Below are positions 40,599 to 61,145 of a DNA stretch of 63,238 nt, one piece after another; the first letter of the stretch is position 1; each line of letters begins with the position of its first letter. A model generated the notes under the pieces. The model worked only from the letters and a program-made list of their open reading frames with translations. It was not told where the DNA came from and made no database searches. Origin of the DNA: Desulfovibrionaceae bacterium (GTDB taxonomy: Bacteria; Desulfobacterota; Desulfovibrionia; Desulfovibrionales; Desulfovibrionaceae); assembly GCA_016932995.1 (NCBI GenBank), contig JAFGBU010000024.1, positions 1-63,238 on the forward strand, in the 5' to 3' direction. Made by a program: the position numbers and the translations under genes.

Positions 40599-42130
40599 CC
40601 GCCTGTGTCGCCATATCCGCCCTGGGCGCCTGGCTGGGCTTCGCCAACCCCTACCTCCAGGTCCCGGCCGCGGCCCTTTTCCTGCCCCTGGGGCTGTGCC
40701 TCATCGGGTTCAGGGCCGAAAGCGCCAAGACGGCCTTCATGACCGGCTGGCTGGCCGGCTGGCTGGCCTGCCTGGGCTGCCTGTACTGGGTGGCCTTTCC
40801 GGTCCAGCACTACGGCGGGCTGAACTGGCTTCTGGCCGCGCCCTGCCCGGCGCTCATGTGCCTGGTCCTCGGGGCCTACCACGGCCTGTTCTGCCTGGCC
40901 ATGCACCTGGCCGCCCGAAAAAAACTGGCCCCGGCCTTGATCTGCCTGTTCGCCGCCGCGACCTGGACGTTCATGGAGATGCTCTCGGCCACGCTTTTCA
41001 GCGGCTTTCCCTGGCTCTCGCTCTCCTCCTCGCTCGCGCCCTGGCCCGTGGCCGTGCAGGCCGCGTCCCTGGTGGGCGCGTTCGGCCTGTCCGGGCTCAT
41101 GGCCGGCCTGGCCTGCGCCATGTGCCTCTGGCGGCGCTCGAACCTGGTCAAGGTCCTGGCCGCGGGTCTGGCCGCCGGACTGCTCTGCTTCGGCTGGCTG
41201 CGCATGAACGGATGGCCGCAGCCCGCTCCGGACGCGCGCGGCCGATTGCTGGACGTGGCCCTGGTCCAGGGCGACATCGACCAGAGCCTCAAATGGAAGA
41301 GGAGCTACCAGTCGGCCACCGTGGACAAGTACCTGGGCCTGGGCCGCAGGGCCGTCACCGAGCTCGACAGTGAGCCCTCCGGCGCGCCCAGGCTCATGAT
41401 CTGGCCCGAGACCTGCCTGCCCTTCTACTTCCAGGACGACACCGATCTCAGGCTCAGGCTCACGGACTTCGCCCGGGAAAACCGCCTCGCCCTGGTCCTG
41501 GGCTCTCCGGGATACTCCCTGGACACCAGGGACAACAGCGTCGCGCTCCACAACCGGGCCTACCTCCTGGACGGCCTGGGCCTGATCAGCGGATGGTACG
41601 ACAAGGAGCACCTGGTGCCCTTTGGCGAGTACGCGCCCCTCAAGGAATTTCTGCCCATCGGCAAGCTGGTCGAGGACATCGGCGACTTCAGGCCCGGAAG
41701 GGCCCAGCGGCCCCTGGACATGGGCGCGGGCGCGAGGCTCGGGATGCTCATCTGCTACGAGGTCATCTTCCCGGACCTGGCCCAGGAGCGGGTCCGGTCC
41801 GGGGCCGGCCTGTTGGTGAGCATCAGCAACGACGCCTGGTTCGGGGAGACCTCGGCCCCCCTGCAGCACCTCTCGCTCTCGATCATGCGGGCCGTGGAGC
41901 AGGGACGCTGGCTGGCGCGGGCCACCAACACCGGGATATCGGCCCTGGTCGACCCCCTGGGCCGGGTCACGGCCCGAAGCGGCCTGTTCGAGGCCCGGGT
42001 CCTGACCGGAAAAGTGCGCTCGACCATGGACAAGACCGCATTCAACCATATATTTGACGTATTCAAATGGGTCATATATGCACTTGTTCTCCTGTTCGCG
42101 GGCCTCTTGGCCCTGCGGCGCAGGAGATAA
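40595..42130 (+). CDS. lnt: Apolipoprotein N-acyltransferase
   Basis: 511 aa from the GTG at 40595 overlapping the upstream TGA by two bases; the frame is open further upstream but without membrane-like sequence. About six N-terminal membrane helices precede the nitrilase domain. The catalytic triad is seen as Glu in LMIWPETCLPF, Lys in WYDKEHLVPFGEYAP and Cys in GMLICYEVIFPDLAQ. A final membrane helix is VIYALVLLFAGLLAL. It adds the third acyl chain to lipoproteins on the periplasmic face. Confidence 0.95.
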   Translation: MTACVAISALGAWLGFANPYLQVPAAALFLPLGLCLIGFRAESAKTAFMTGWLAGWLACLGCLYWVAFPVQHYGGLNWLLAAPCPALMCLVLGAYHGLFCLAMHLAARKKLAPALICLFAAATWTFMEMLSATLFSGFPWLSLSSSLAPWPVAVQAASLVGAFGLSGLMAGLACAMCLWRRSNLVKVLAAGLAAGLLCFGWLRMNGWPQPAPDARGRLLDVALVQGDIDQSLKWKRSYQSATVDKYLGLGRRAVTELDSEPSGAPRLMIWPETCLPFYFQDDTDLRLRLTDFARENRLALVLGSPGYSLDTRDNSVALHNRAYLLDGLGLISGWYDKEHLVPFGEYAPLKEFLPIGKLVEDIGDFRPGRAQRPLDMGAGARLGMLICYEVIFPDLAQERVRSGAGLLVSISNDAWFGETSAPLQHLSLSIMRAVEQGRWLARATNTGISALVDPLGRVTARSGLFEARVLTGKVRSTMDKTAFNHIFDVFKWVIYALVLLFAGLLALRRRR

Positions 42131-42155: not shown

Positions 42156-43275
42156 ATGCTTCAATATCCGGAACTCAAGGCCCAAGGGGCCCAGCTTCTG
42201 GAACAGTTCCGCAGTCTTTGGGGGCGCCTTTGACTACCAGCGCGCCAAGGACAGGCTCGCGCAGATAGAGACCGAGCTCGCCAAGCCCGGGGCCTGGAAC
42301 GATCCGGACAAGATGACCCCCCTTCTCCAGGAAAAAAGCCGCCTCAAGCACCGGCTCAAGATGTACGAGCCCCTGGCCAAGGCCAAGGACGAGGCCGAGG
42401 AATGGCTGGACATGGCCGCCGAGGACAACGGGCCCGAGGTCCTGGCCGCGCTCAAGGAGCAGCTCGACATCCTGGCCAAAAGGCTCGAGGACACGGAAAC
42501 GGCCGTTCTGCTCAGCGAGCCCCAGGACCAGTTCCCGGCGATACTTGAAATCCATCCCGGGGCCGGGGGCGTCGAGTCCCAGGACTGGGCCGAGATGCTC
42601 CTGCGCATGTACACGCGCTGGGCCGAGGAGCACGGCTTCAAGGTCAACGCCCTGGACCTGATGCCCGGCCTGGAGGCCGGGATCAAGAGCGCCACCATCC
42701 AGATAGAGGGCCCCTACGCCTACGGATTTTTGAAGTGCGAGGAGGGCATCCACCGACTCATAAGGATATCGCCCTTTGACGCCTCCGGCCGCAGGCACAC
42801 CTCGTTCGCCTCGGTGGACGTGTACCCGGACGTGGAGCAGGACATCGAGATAGACATCAAGGAGGATGACCTGCGGGTGGACGTGTTCAGGGCCAGCGGC
42901 CCCGGCGGCCAGCACGTCAACAAGACCAACTCGGCGGTGCGCATCACCCATCTGCCCACGAACATCGTGGTCCAGTGCCAGAACGAGAAGTCCCAGTTCA
43001 AGAACAAGGCCACGGCCATGAAGATCCTCAAGGCCAGGCTCTACGAGGCCGAACGCGAGCGCATCGAGGAGACCAAGAGGGCCGACTACGAGGGCAAAGA
43101 GGCCATCGCCTGGGGCAGCCAGATACGCTCGTACACGCTCCAGCCCTACAGGCTGGTCAAGGACCACCGCTCCCAGGCCGAGGTCGGGAACGTGGACGCG
43201 GTGCTGGACGGGGAATTGGACGGACTGATCCGCAGCCAGCTCTTGCACGCCCATGCACAAAAACAGCAAGCATAA
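42156..43275 (+). CDS. prfB: Peptide chain release factor 2, expressed by programmed +1 frameshift
   Basis: About 372 aa when the frames are joined. Codons 1-25 run from ATG 42156 (MLQYPELKAQ...) to an in-frame TGA at 42231-42233. The downstream frame starts with GAC at 42232 (DYQRAKDRLAQIE) and ends at 43275. The recoding signal is CTT TGA C with a G-rich SD-like stretch just upstream. The tripeptide anticodon region ISPFDASG and GGQ motif (SGPGGQHVNKTNSAVRI) are present. It recognises UGA and UAA. The frameshift is the usual autoregulation by RF2 level. Its end overlaps the next start by 23 bases. Confidence 0.95.
42221..42233 (+). promoter_or_regulatory. prfB recoding site
   Basis: GGGGCGCCTTTGA: internal SD-like G-run (from 42220), slippery CTT (42228-42230), TGA (42231-42233) followed by C, the weak stop context typical of RF2 genes. 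Confidence 0.93.
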
Positions 43276-44101
43276 CCCCGCGTCCGAGGGCGGCCTGCTG
43301 GGCGAGATCAAGGCCCTGCAGCGCGAGCTCCACGACCTGGCGGGCATGGCCCATGGCCCGGGCCTGGGCATATTCCGGCTCTTGCCCGGCATCGGCCTGG
43401 ACAAGTGGGAGGACATCTCCAGGCGCCACAACCTGAACCACTGGCTGGCCCTGCCCCTGGACGGCGAGATCAGGCCCCGGCTGGAGAGCCTCCAGCAGAC
43501 CCTGGACCGCCTTTTCGCCACCGTGGCCCCGGGTCCGCTGGGCGGCCTGGCCGACTACTGCGGCCTGGAGGACATCCTGGACATGGAGATGGAGAGGTCC
43601 AGGCGCTGCCAGACCCCGGTCAGCCTGGCCATCCTCGGCCTGGACGACCCCGGGGCCGTCACCCGGACCCACGGCCGCGACGCCCCCGCGACTGCCCTGG
43701 ACGGCCTGAGCGCCCTGGTCCGGACGGCCAAGCGCAGGTACGACCTGGCCGCCATGTTCGACCGCGACCGGCTGGCCGTGGTCTTGTCCGGCACGGGCCC
43801 GGTCCAGGCCCAGAAAAAATTGACCACGGTCCTCGAAGAGTTCCAGAACACGCCCTTTTGCTGCGGCCAGGGCGCGCCGACCTTCAACACGACCTGCTCG
43901 GCCGGGGTGACCTGTTTCAGGGGCCGGACCGAGATATCGGTCAGGGCGTTCATGGACAAGGCCCTGGCCGCCATGGCCGAGGCCGTGGCCCTGGGCGGGG
44001 CGAGGGTCAACCTGTCCCCGCTGGCCGATCTGGACATGGTGCCCAGGGAGACCCTGGTCCGGTCCTCGGAAAAGAAATTCCTGTTCACGGGCAAACCATA
44101 G
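43253..44101 (+). CDS. Degenerate GGDEF-like domain protein
   Basis: 282 aa, cytoplasmic. The N-terminal 110 residues are helical and of unknown type. The C-terminal part (about 112-270) follows the diguanylate cyclase layout: helix with DILDMEMERSRRCQTPVSLA, then a strand-turn-strand where GGDEF should be, here AAMFDRDRLAVVLSGTG. The signature is therefore lost and catalysis unlikely. It could bind a nucleotide or act as a protein partner. It starts inside the end of prfB and is followed after 12 bases by the MinD-like gene, suggesting a common role. Confidence 0.7.
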   Translation: MHKNSKHNPASEGGLLGEIKALQRELHDLAGMAHGPGLGIFRLLPGIGLDKWEDISRRHNLNHWLALPLDGEIRPRLESLQQTLDRLFATVAPGPLGGLADYCGLEDILDMEMERSRRCQTPVSLAILGLDDPGAVTRTHGRDAPATALDGLSALVRTAKRRYDLAAMFDRDRLAVVLSGTGPVQAQKKLTTVLEEFQNTPFCCGQGAPTFNTTCSAGVTCFRGRTEISVRAFMDKALAAMAEAVALGGARVNLSPLADLDMVPRETLVRSSEKKFLFTGKP

Positions 44102-44113
44102 GAACCCGCGGCC

Positions 44114-44941
44114 ATGATCAACGACAACAAGACCTTCAGCCTGTCCATCCTGAGCGGCAAGGGCGGGGTGGGAAAGACCAACCTGGCCCTGAACCTGGGC
44201 TTTGCCCTGCACGCCTTCGGTCAGCCGACCATGCTCATGGACTGCGACCTCGGCCTGGCCAACCTGGACGTGCTCCTGGGCATATCCCCGGACAAGAACT
44301 TCCAGGACCTGATCGAGCAGGACGCCAGGCCCGAGGACATCCTCGTGGCCCTGGAGAGCGACGGCCTGGACGTCATGCCCGCGGCGAGCGGCGTGCCCGA
44401 GCTGGTCGAGATGGACGAGGACATGCAGGCCATGCTCTTCGACAAGCTCAAGGACCTGGTCAACAAGTACCACTTCCTGATCCTGGACCTCGGGGCCGGC
44501 ATCACCTCCACCGTGCTCTCGTTTGCCTCCATGACCCAGGCCCGGCTGCTGGTGATCACCCCGGAGCCGACCTCGCTCACGGACGGCTACGCCATGATCA
44601 AGGTGCTCTCCGCCCAGTACGGGGTCCGGGACTTCTGCGTGATCGTCAACCAGGCCTCGTCACAAAAAGAGGCCAAGGAGACCTTCAAGCGCCTGGACAT
44701 GGCCTGCCGGAAGTTTCTGGACATCGAGATCACCGGCCTGGGCAGCGTCAGCCAGGACGAAAGCATGATCGAGGCCGTGCGCAACCAGGTGCCCCTGCTC
44801 AAGTTCGCCCCCGGCTGCCGGGCCAGCCAGGACATCTCCTCGCTGGCCAAGAAGCTGCTGCGCTATCGCCAGGACAACGAAGAGGCGATCTCCGGCCGTC
44901 CGGCGCTCAAAAATTTCCCGTCCCTTGAAACCCGGAGATAG
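44114..44941 (+). CDS. MinD/ParA-family ATPase (FlhG/FleN-like)
   Basis: 275 aa. The deviant Walker A is LSGKGGVGKTNLALNLGFAL, followed by LMDCDLGLANLDVLLGI and the Walker B-like FLILDLGAGITSTVLSFA. TPEPTSLTDGYAMIKVLS is typical of FlhG/FleN/MinD-like proteins. These ATPases dimerise with ATP on membranes or partners and control placement or number of structures. Without flagellar neighbours the role here is open; pairing with a degenerate GGDEF protein hints at a polar or c-di-GMP-linked function. Confidence 0.88.
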   Translation: MINDNKTFSLSILSGKGGVGKTNLALNLGFALHAFGQPTMLMDCDLGLANLDVLLGISPDKNFQDLIEQDARPEDILVALESDGLDVMPAASGVPELVEMDEDMQAMLFDKLKDLVNKYHFLILDLGAGITSTVLSFASMTQARLLVITPEPTSLTDGYAMIKVLSAQYGVRDFCVIVNQASSQKEAKETFKRLDMACRKFLDIEITGLGSVSQDESMIEAVRNQVPLLKFAPGCRASQDISSLAKKLLRYRQDNEEAISGRPALKNFPSLETRR

Positions 44942-45049: not shown

Positions 45050-45325
45050 ATGAACAAAAGCGAACTCATAAAGGCCTTGGCGGAAAAGAAAAAACTGCAC
45101 GTAGACGACTCCACGAAGATCGTCTCCGCCTTTGTCGACTCCATCAAGGAGGCGCTCGTGCGCGGCGACCGGGTCGAGATCCGCGGGTTCGGCAGCTTCA
45201 AGATCAAGGATTACAGCGGCTACACCGGCCGCAACCCCAAGACCGGCGACATGGTCAAGGTCAAGCCCAAGAAACTTCCCTTTTTCAGACCCGGCAAGGA
45301 GCTGAAGGAATTCATCAACGGCTGA
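45050..45325 (+). CDS. HU/IHF-family DNA-binding protein
   Basis: 91 aa. MNKSELIKALAEKKKLHVDD, VEIRGFGSFKIKDYSGYTGR and NPKTGDMVKVKPKKLPFFRP give the full fold. The RGFGSF and KPKKLPFFRPGKELKE wording resembles IHF-alpha/HU hybrids. Nucleoid DNA bending. It is followed with one base between by the UGA-containing gene. Confidence 0.93.
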   Translation: MNKSELIKALAEKKKLHVDDSTKIVSAFVDSIKEALVRGDRVEIRGFGSFKIKDYSGYTGRNPKTGDMVKVKPKKLPFFRPGKELKEFING

Positions 45326-45326
45326 G

Positions 45327-46292
45327 ATGCGCCGCGTCCTGATCGCGGTCCTGGCCGCGGCCGCGATATTCTCGGCCGCGGGCCTGTGCCGCGCCGATCC
45401 CCTGCTGACCATCGTCTTCACCGGAAACACCTTCGGCGCCAAATGGCCCTGCCCGACCTGAGGCGGCAAGACGATCGGAGGCTTCGCCCGGCGGGCGAGC
45501 TATTTCAAGGAATTGAGGGAGGCGCGCAGGGCCGGGGACCTGCTCTTCGTCGCCGGGGCCTTTGAACTTCATCCCGCCGCGACAAAGGACGGGCCCGCCC
45601 CGGACCCGCAGGAGGCGGCCCTGCTGACCGAGGTCTACAACATCCTCGACTACGACCTGGGATACCTGTCGCCCGAGGACAGGCAATTTCTGGATCAGGG
45701 GGCGGCCGCCGCCCCGGGCGACTGGCTGTGTCCGGACTCGACGAGCACCAGGGTCCTCAAGACCAAGACCGGGGTCAGGATCGGCCTGGTCTTTTTCCCG
45801 CCCCTTCAAAAAGGGACAAAAAAACCGGACAGGGAGCTGGTCCGGGCCGTGGACCTAGCCGTGGCCAAGATGCGCGCCGAAACGGACCTGGTCCTGGCCC
45901 TGAGCCCCTGGGGCCTGATCCCCGAGCAGAGCTACCTCGACGGAAACGACAAGGGCCCGGACATACTGCTCGGCAGCGGTCCGGGCACGGGCCTCAAGGG
46001 CTATGTCCAGCCGGGCGGCAACACCTTGTGGGTCCGCGCATACTCCAAGGGCCGGGCCCTGAACCAGCTGGAGGTCTCAGGGCTCCCGGCGGGGACAAAG
46101 GGCTCCGCCTGGCGGCCGGAAAAAAACATCGCCGCCCGGATCATAGGATTGACCGAGAATATCCAAAACGATAAGCGAATGACGAGGCTCCTCGACAGTT
46201 GGCGGGGAGAATCCGACGCAAAAGGAGGAAGGCATGCAACTGCGCGGCGCGTTTACCGCATTGGCGACCCCTTTCAAGAACGGGGCCGTTGA
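45327..46292 (+). CDS. UshA-like secreted protein with in-frame UGA: candidate selenoprotein
   Basis: 321 aa if the TGA at 45459-45461 is read as Sec45. A signal peptide (MRRVLIAVLAAAAIFSAAGL, cut near CRA/DP) is followed by TIVFTGNTFGAKWPCPT-U-GG and then, in the same frame, KTIGGFARRASYFKELREA. The frame continues to 46292 with neighbour-like codon use. CPT-U is a CxxU redox-type motif. GGFARRA matches the GGLARRA seen after the first motif of 5'-nucleotidase/UshA proteins, but the metal-binding D-x-H is lost (TGNTFG). A SECIS-like hairpin follows the TGA. The 3' end overlaps dapA by 59 bases. The alternative is a pseudogene or a stop followed by re-initiation. Confidence 0.75.
45462..45499 (+). 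promoter_or_regulatory. Putative bacterial SECIS element
   Basis: Directly after the in-frame TGA: stem TTCGCCC (45483-45489), loop GGC (45490-45492), stem GGGCGAG (45493-45499). The apical loop lies 29 bases after the TGA and has G in its first two positions, which fits the usual bacterial SECIS description (short loop with early G, about 16-37 bases from UGA). Confidence 0.6.
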
Positions 46293-47118
46293 CGAGGAGG
46301 CTTACCGGGGCCTCATCGAATGGCAGATCGAACAGGGCATCGACGGCCTGGTGCCCTGCGGGACCACGGGAGAGGCCGCGACCATGGCCCACGCGGAACA
46401 GGGCAAGGTGATCAAGGTCTGCGTGGACCAGGTCAAGGGACGCGTCCCGGTCATCGCCGGGGCCGGCTCGAACAACACCCGGGAGGCCATCGAGCTGACC
46501 CTGCTGGCCAAGGCCGCCGGAGCGGACGCCGCCCTCCAGATCACCCCCTACTACAACAAGCCGACGCCCAATGGCCTGGTCGAGCACTACAAGGCCATCG
46601 CCCGCGAGGCCTCCATGCCGTTCATCGTCTACAACGTGCCGGGCAGGACCAGCCTGAACCTGCTGCCCAAGACCCTGGCCCGCATCGCCGAGGCCGTGCC
46701 CGAGGTCGTCGGGGTCAAGGAGGCCACCGGCTGCATGAAGCAGGCCTCGGAGGTCCTCGAGTACTGCGGCCAGGACTTCATCCTGCTCTCGGGCGACGAC
46801 TTCACCGTGCTGCCCCTGCTGTCCGTGGGCGGGCTCGGGGTCATCTCCGTGGTCAGCAACATCGTGCCGGACAAGATGGCCGGCATGTGCGCGGCCTTCT
46901 TCAAGGGCGACCTGAAAAAGGCCCGCGAGCTGCACTACTTCATGTCCCCCCTGAACCGGGCCATGTTCATCGAGACCAACCCCATCCCGGTCAAGACCTC
47001 GCTGCACATGATGGGCAGGATCAAGGACCTGGAGTTCAGGTTGCCCCTGGTGCCGCTGACCCCGGAGAGCGAAAAGTCCCTGCGCCGGACGCTTGATGAC
47101 TCCGGGCTGCTGTCCTGA
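46234..47118 (+). CDS. dapA: 4-hydroxy-tetrahydrodipicolinate synthase
   Basis: 294 aa. MQLRGAFTALATPFKNGAVD is the N-terminus, GLVPCGTTGEAATM binds pyruvate, the catalytic tyrosine is in VYNVPGRTSLN and the Schiff-base lysine in EVVGVKEATGCMKQ. It condenses pyruvate with aspartate semialdehyde in lysine/diaminopimelate synthesis. AAAAGGAGG precedes the ATG. It begins inside the 3' end of the UGA-containing gene, so the two are co-transcribed. Confidence 0.96.
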   Translation: MQLRGAFTALATPFKNGAVDEEAYRGLIEWQIEQGIDGLVPCGTTGEAATMAHAEQGKVIKVCVDQVKGRVPVIAGAGSNNTREAIELTLLAKAAGADAALQITPYYNKPTPNGLVEHYKAIAREASMPFIVYNVPGRTSLNLLPKTLARIAEAVPEVVGVKEATGCMKQASEVLEYCGQDFILLSGDDFTVLPLLSVGGLGVISVVSNIVPDKMAGMCAAFFKGDLKKARELHYFMSPLNRAMFIETNPIPVKTSLHMMGRIKDLEFRLPLVPLTPESEKSLRRTLDDSGLLS

Positions 47119-61051: not shown

Positions 61052-61145
61052 GGAGAGGTACCGAAGCGGCCGTAACGGGCCCGACTCGAAATCGGGTTGT
61101 CTGCGATGAGCAGGCACGTGGGTTCGAATCCCACCCTCTCCGCCA
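61052..61145 (+). tRNA. tRNA-Ser (anticodon CGA)
   Basis: 94 nt including an encoded CCA. Acceptor GGAGAGG pairs with CCTCTCC. The anticodon stem CCCGA/TCGGG surrounds loop CTCGAAA, with anticodon CGA at 61087-61089. The long variable arm and T-arm GTGGG-TTCGAAT-CCCAC are class II features. It reads UCG. A T-rich tract follows at 61146. Confidence 0.97.

Follow-up and report, generated by a model that had tools for sequence, protein, structure and literature searches.

Does the TGA at positions 45459–45461 of this stretch of DNA end a short reading frame, or is it decoded as selenocysteine, and what kind of protein would then be made? On the forward strand the window (the whole stretch analysed, 63,238 nucleotides) carries a frame that opens at ATG 45327, runs for 44 codons to this TGA, continues for a further 276 codons and closes with the TGA stop at 46290–46292. 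Read through, the gene (45327–46292) specifies 321 residues. The first-pass annotation had proposed a selenoprotein here, and its coordinates, its codon counts and the 59 bases by which it had the 3′-end of the gene overlap the start of dapA (46234–46292) all proved correct on recount.

Several features are evident in the read-through product. Approximately the first 23 residues (45327–45395) read by eye as an export signal, with residues 2–18 helical in an AlphaFold2 model, and the protein is probably exported by this means. The TGA forms the end of a CxxU motif, C42-P-T-U45 (45450–45461), in which Cys42 is encoded at 45450–45452; a few codons further on, G51-G-F-A-R-R-A57 (45477–45497) is, by alignment, the conserved stretch that opens the first helix in the phosphoesterase fold. 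The tail that lies over dapA (residues ∼303–321) has no counterpart in the relatives aligned in alignment A1, pLDDT falls below 50 from residue 304, and this part of the protein is probably an unstructured extension.

Comparison of the read-through protein with the NCBIfam model NF049981 (“UshA-like (seleno)protein family 2”, an equivalog model) gave 293.4 bits against a cut-off of 140 (E 1.5e-87). The match takes residues 27–289 unbroken across model positions 1–261 of 262, and the 29 aligned relatives also match both sides of the TGA: the likeness across the codon that had been noted from the sequence alone is thus real. All 30 members of A1 match the model at 1e-5 or better. CxxU is the motif given for NF049981 in the table of a 2026 review (PMC13188914), which lists “UshA-like selenoprotein family 2, NF049981, CxxU” with the source “GenBank annotated”; between the window protein and this family, alike in motif and matched over the whole length, no difference was found. 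Judged by its sequence the window gene is a new member of an already named and catalogued family, and its reading as a selenoprotein is well supported. A literature search by accession found NF049981 named in PMC13188914 alone, and the passages seen there on the family state no function: among selenoprotein families it is a clear example of a catalogue name to which no function is attached.

A second family of similar name is distinct. The tables of PMC2398784 (2008) and PMC9312934 (2022) contain an “UshA-like” family with CxU, assigned to COG0737, which corresponds to NF041198 (“UshA-like (seleno)protein”) in the table of PMC13188914. The N-terminal domain of NF041198 is related and carries PC-x-U ahead of GGLARR/K; in contrast to its PCGU (CxU), the window protein has CxxU, and it has no cytochrome c554-like C-terminal domain. 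Membership of NF041198 is rejected by score (36.9 bits, cut-off 275).

To survey relatives we used the window protein, rather than the family model, as query. The gene was matched in 39 of 59 related genomes, including 35 of the 50 that are at least 90% complete and at most 5% contaminated; the other 20 of the 59 gave no match to the window protein, so the gene is not essential to the group. A second copy in genome G010 (L091), which is broken by a TAA and was not read at the site, was left out, as were two weak matches in G031 (C51 and C64), which are taken to be other nucleotidase-like genes because NF041198 scores better. The family model itself, run against 297 genomes of the phylum, had matches at 1e-8 in 75 and exceeded its cut-off in only four, all belonging to the taxonomic family of the window; seven more genomes of that taxonomic family in the sample had no match at 1e-8. 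Among 27 loci the first 20 are titled Desulfovibrionales (Desulfovibrio, Solidesulfovibrio, Salidesulfovibrio, Desulfohalobiaceae and others) or “Proteobacteria”/“Deltaproteobacteria”, and the remaining seven are weaker matches, six of which are titled as other phyla.

The site of the TGA was read in all 39 genomes: at least one TGA copy is present in 37, and two (G027 and G008) have only TGC. Counted as distinct copies, TGA occupies the site in 39 of 43, and cysteine in L002, L008, L085 and L086 (codon TGC in the first three; not printed for L086); within A1 the codons are TGA in 28 of 30 and TGC in two. Cysteine is the sole alternative to TGA seen. The first-pass annotation had reasoned that a cysteine at this position in homologues would support selenocysteine, and the four cysteine copies supply it. 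Translation table 11 splits the frame into 44 codons and, from a TTG, 259 codons, as it would if the TGA were a true stop and the remainder a decaying or separate gene (a pseudogene, or two proteins). We reject an ordinary stop or pseudogene as highly improbable, given that TGA is conserved at this one site in 37 of 39 genomes, that only cysteine replaces it, and that the A1 proteins are 28–37% identical to that of the window. A sequencing error at 45459–45461, which the origin of the window in a 49-contig assembly would allow as a general possibility, is barely credible, and is in effect refuted by the many other assemblies that have TGA at the aligned position.

On the tree, read by eye, the cysteine copy L008_C stands beside L008_U (94/84) and L085_C beside L094_U (99/91). 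These pairs fall in different groups, which implies at least two separate switches between selenocysteine and cysteine; the placement of L002 and L086 is not settled, and the label-change count of the tree (“Cys changes 1”) was taken against the outgroup only and is not a number of switches. Two genomes contain both versions: in G024 a cysteine copy (L008) and a selenocysteine copy (L088) are found in tandem behind an HU-type gene, and in G002 there is one selenocysteine copy and a separate cysteine copy (L086). The first cysteine of the CxxU motif is kept in 41 of the 43 distinct copies. The two remaining copies, L018 (genome G037, TGA 1570–1572, PIKAU) and L096 (G001, TGA 1605–1607, PEAGU), have lost it and retain both the selenocysteine codon and the hairpin.

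Decoding of TGA calls on dedicated machinery, and a search for the sel genes, which the first-pass annotation had proposed as a check, found it in the genome of the window: selA (593 bits), selB (366 bits) and selD (313 bits) all score above their cut-offs, and there is also a tRNA-Sec, anticodon TCA. selA and selB lie at most ∼1.5 kb apart on contig C32. The selD gene (L038, G000:C44) is itself a selenoprotein gene of a known kind, its in-frame TGA falling at residue 10 of the match. The phylum of the window is, according to the part of PMC13188914 consulted, among those richest in selenoproteins.

In seven of the 59 genomes selB falls under its cut-off. Four of these (G006, G018, G029 and G034) have no copy of the gene. 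TGA copies are present in two others despite the want of selB over the cut-off, a situation we attribute to incomplete assembly (G014 is in 430 contigs and has tRNA-Sec; G021 is 67% complete). The seventh, G008, is 95% complete in three contigs, and here cysteine replaces selenocysteine and no selB passes the cut-off: its best selB match has 192 bits of the 242 needed, and its best tRNA-Sec match, at 47.9 bits nominally above the Rfam gathering score of 47, ranks with the second-rank matches of other genomes (∼43–53 bits), not with the clear ones (74–88 bits). However, G027 has selB and tRNA-Sec and yet only TGC at the site, so that cysteine is not solely a consequence of losing the machinery.

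The second requirement considered was a SECIS element. The hairpin with seven pairs and a GGC loop that the first-pass annotation had described after the TGA is present at 45483–45499: the stem is TTCGCCC (45483–45489) paired with GGGCGAG (45493–45499), seven contiguous pairs including one G-U, the loop occupies 45490–45492, and 28 nt separate it from the TGA. Most of the hairpin is written in the codons for G51-G-F-A-R-R-A57. The bacterial model as set out in the part of PMC13188914 consulted specifies a stem of 4–16 bp, a loop of 3–9 nt with G in the first two loop bases, a spacing of 16–37 nt and an energy of −7.5 kcal/mol or lower. The window hairpin lies within these limits, with a stem of 7, the loop GGC, a spacing of 28 and −9.5 kcal/mol. 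With stems required to be free of bulges, 32 of the 39 selenocysteine copies lie within them as against 12.0 expected from synonymous recoding, and the other seven all miss on energy. Two of the four cysteine copies (L008 and L085) pass by some hairpin. A helix of six pairs is unbroken in 33 of 39 selenocysteine copies versus one of four cysteine copies (L008, the tandem partner of a selenocysteine copy). Because the copies are related, neither these counts nor those of codons below are independent trials.

Folding energy alone does not make a convincing case. The 54-nt piece of the window has z = 0.24, not unusual for G+C-rich DNA; the 21-nt hairpin has z = −1.44 and is matched by 17 of 200 shuffles; synonymous recoding of the window gene yields a hairpin of equal quality in 9% of cases; and for the 51 bases from the site onward just three of 30 genes have 5% or fewer of recodings as stable. 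The claim is instead carried by the test against the model and by a test of codon choice. Among the 28 selenocysteine genes of A1, Ala54 is GCC in 26 of 27, Arg55 is CGG in 26 of 28, and Arg56 is CGG in 20 of 28 and AGG in six. Codons 54–56 each have p = 0.0005 against the usage of their own genes, the lowest value possible with 2000 draws from that usage, and no other conserved column tested is as constrained; there follow P41 (0.001), G242 (0.007), A57 (0.0075), L53 (0.010) and G222 (0.0105), with the rest at 0.02 or above. For Arg237, whose conservation at the protein level is almost as high, p is 0.78. Together the codons of residues 53–58 spell (T)GGCCC-GG(C/A)-GGGCC(A). The third base of codon 53 pairs with that of codon 57 as C-G in the window (TTC/GCG) and as G-C in most others (CTG/GCC), and in L093 and L095 GCTC/GAGC replaces GCCC/GGGC: with changes on both sides, the pairs are kept. 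The hairpin stands above chance because TGA or cysteine at the site and the hairpin codons are conserved across relatives, the codons more strictly than the protein requires; the window hairpin fits the published model and is of the SECIS type.

The E. coli fdhF-type SECIS also has a small apical loop that starts with G and lies 16–37 nt past the UGA. The fdhF loop is GGUCU, and a similar loop, GGTCTG, is found 18–21 nt after the TGA in seven of the 21 wider relatives listed and in one family 2 member, L089 (versus 28 nt in the window). These 21 sequences are all outside family 2 (the pattern did not catch L065, L066 and L072), and their spacings were corrected by 6 or 9 bases, the distance from the first cysteine to the selenocysteine site. 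In L092 the best hairpin is 17 nt after the TGA. In most of family 2, by contrast, the loop reads GGC or GGA and lies 28 nt past the UGA, ∼7–10 nt further than in the GGTCTG relatives. With the hairpin set in more than one register of a single protein motif, the family lends itself to studying how SECIS elements drift.

The position of the gene in the genome is stable. In the window it is preceded on the forward strand by a gene for an HU/IHF-type DNA-binding protein (45050–45325; IHF-beta model 102.6 bits, cut-off 115, with HU models lower) and a MinD/ParA-type ATPase gene (44114–44941; best MinD model 111.8 bits, below the cut-off of 201.75). A GGDEF-domain gene (43253–44101) comes before the latter. 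The selenoprotein gene is followed on the same strand by dapA, encoding 4-hydroxy-tetrahydrodipicolinate synthase (46234–47118; TIGR00674, 346 bits, cut-off 206). Gene order agrees with the placement between HU/IHF and dapA originally given. An HU-type motif is found just upstream in 25 of 30 loci; in L020 and L023, two of the five without it that were inspected, a MinD-like ATPase is directly upstream. Downstream, dapA is the next gene in 14 of 30 loci and dapF in 14 others, 13 of which have dapA behind dapF within the sequence covered; in L014 dapA is ∼1.7 kb away with no dapF motif, so that dapA lies within 2.2 kb downstream in 28 of the 30. The tandem copy L008 has neither a dapA nor a dapF motif within reach. 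HU, dapF and dapA say nothing about redox.

What the protein might do is best approached through its predicted fold. The AlphaFold2 model (mean pLDDT 88.1, pTM 0.85) superposes on SoxB (2wdc) with Z 25.0 and an rmsd of 2.8 over 260 residues; across SoxB, CD73, UshA, NadN and other nucleotidases Z ranges from 19 to 25 (19–24 for the 5′-nucleotidases), differences under 1 being ties. A Foldseek search gave 3ive at E 1.1e-13. The fold is therefore predicted to be that of the 5′-nucleotidase/SoxB catalytic domain, and the label “UshA-like” in the first-pass annotation is borne out. The GG-x-ARR helix start is also common to the window protein, SoxB and the UshA/CD73 5′-nucleotidases; the window protein differs from them in its replaced metal ligands, in having no second domain and in having CxxU instead.

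The superfamily holds its two metals by the ligands D-x-H, D, N-H, H and H-x-H, and these are not found in the window protein. The A1 profile matches solved 5′-nucleotidases weakly (E 0.03), and its alignment to 2z1a sets FTANTYGE against HTNDTHAH and GGLARR against GGVARR, which places N34 and F36 of the window protein where the first metal motif has D and H. The other ligand motifs, compared by eye in A1 and A3, also appear replaced (DSGD by VAGA, LSHLG by LSPWG, GGHD/GSHT by GSGP); in wider members they are partly kept (A3). The C-terminal 5′-nucleotidase domain is absent, the gene ending after the first domain, and no Pfam match exceeds a cut-off. The loss of UshA-family metal ligands suspected at first sight is thus upheld by the alignments, and with these residues replaced the protein should not be a phosphatase; on sequence, that default is rejected.

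Weaker NF049981 matches whose loci were read form a wider group in which PCP-x-U or PCG-U/C predominates. Nine wider members were scanned against NCBIfam: all nine match the SoxB model (up to 2.4e-32, all under its cut-off) and all nine match NF041198, four of them over the cut-off. The same four, among ten wider members chosen for the scan, carry PF13435 (cytochrome c554-like) with four CxxCH behind the UshA-like domain. In these proteins (L068, L079, L118 and L122, with PCG-U or PCG-C) a SoxB/UshA-like domain is followed by the cytochrome c554-like domain. No heme domain is found in family 2 itself. The heme-fused relatives suggest, by analogy, an exchange of electrons with c-type cytochromes. 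The existence of such a cousin narrows the question of function, as do the lost phosphatase site, the selenocysteine kept by two members without its partner cysteine, and the cysteine that takes its place in G008.

Together these data favour the view that the window gene encodes an NF049981 selenoprotein that is, with somewhat better than even confidence on our part, an exported, metal-free redox protein using selenocysteine on a dead phosphoesterase scaffold. SelB and the selenocysteine tRNA would decode the TGA at 45459–45461, helped by the hairpin at 45483–45499, and the N-terminal signal would direct export of the product. The mature part would fold as the metal-binding domain of 5′-nucleotidases and SoxB with its metal-holding residues replaced, placing Cys42-x-x-Sec45 shortly behind the first strand, in the region that ordinarily provides the first metal ligands of this fold. 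Outside the cytoplasm the selenolate would do the chemistry, forming in most members a selenenyl-sulfide with Cys42, and electrons would be exchanged with periplasmic partners, plausibly c-type cytochromes because the PCG-U/C branch is fused to a cytochrome c554-like domain with four CxxCH. If this redox reading is true, evolution has made a selenoenzyme out of a phosphoesterase scaffold.

A strict CxxU pair does not fit the two members in which selenocysteine and hairpin persist without the first cysteine: if the L018 and L096 genes are active, the selenolate must there act without Cys42. Selenocysteine retained without its partner cysteine is the most interesting loose end in these data, and it invites the alternative that selenocysteine acts alone, the selenolate serving as nucleophile towards, or as ligand of, a sulfur or selenium compound (a SoxB-like substrate) bound at the old phosphatase site with no metal. 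SoxB ranks among the best fold matches and the wider members match its model, albeit under the cut-off, as this alternative would have it; however, the first cysteine persists in the other 41 copies and the lead of SoxB over the 5′-nucleotidases, less than ∼1 Z, is a tie. We consider it unlikely, if worth keeping in mind. More doubtful still is a protein that continues to bind a metal or a phosphorylated ligand, with selenocysteine in a regulatory or structural role: the model retains the whole fold and A1 shows little or no variation at E80, E200, D212, W195, W235 and R237, but family 2 has other residues in place of the superfamily's metal ligand motifs.

A broader history may be sketched, as speculation to which we attach little probability. 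A dead dimetal phosphoesterase of the SoxB/5′-nucleotidase type would have been rebuilt as a metal-free selenoenzyme, one branch becoming heme-coupled (PCG-U with a cytochrome c554-like domain) and the other a free-standing periplasmic protein of Desulfovibrionales, in which a single selenolate would act on sulfur or selenium compounds and the neighbouring cysteine would be dispensable.

Two further features of the window were recorded. At 42156–42234, what we take to be prfB (release factor 2) seems to contain CTT TGA C, the programmed +1 frameshift site classical for this gene and of a known kind; its TGA (42231–42233) is codon 26 from ATG 42156, and with the frameshift site reckoned from that ATG the mechanical ORF start at 42067 would be wrong. 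A single tRNA gene, at 61052–61142, is the sole Rfam match over the gathering score in the window.
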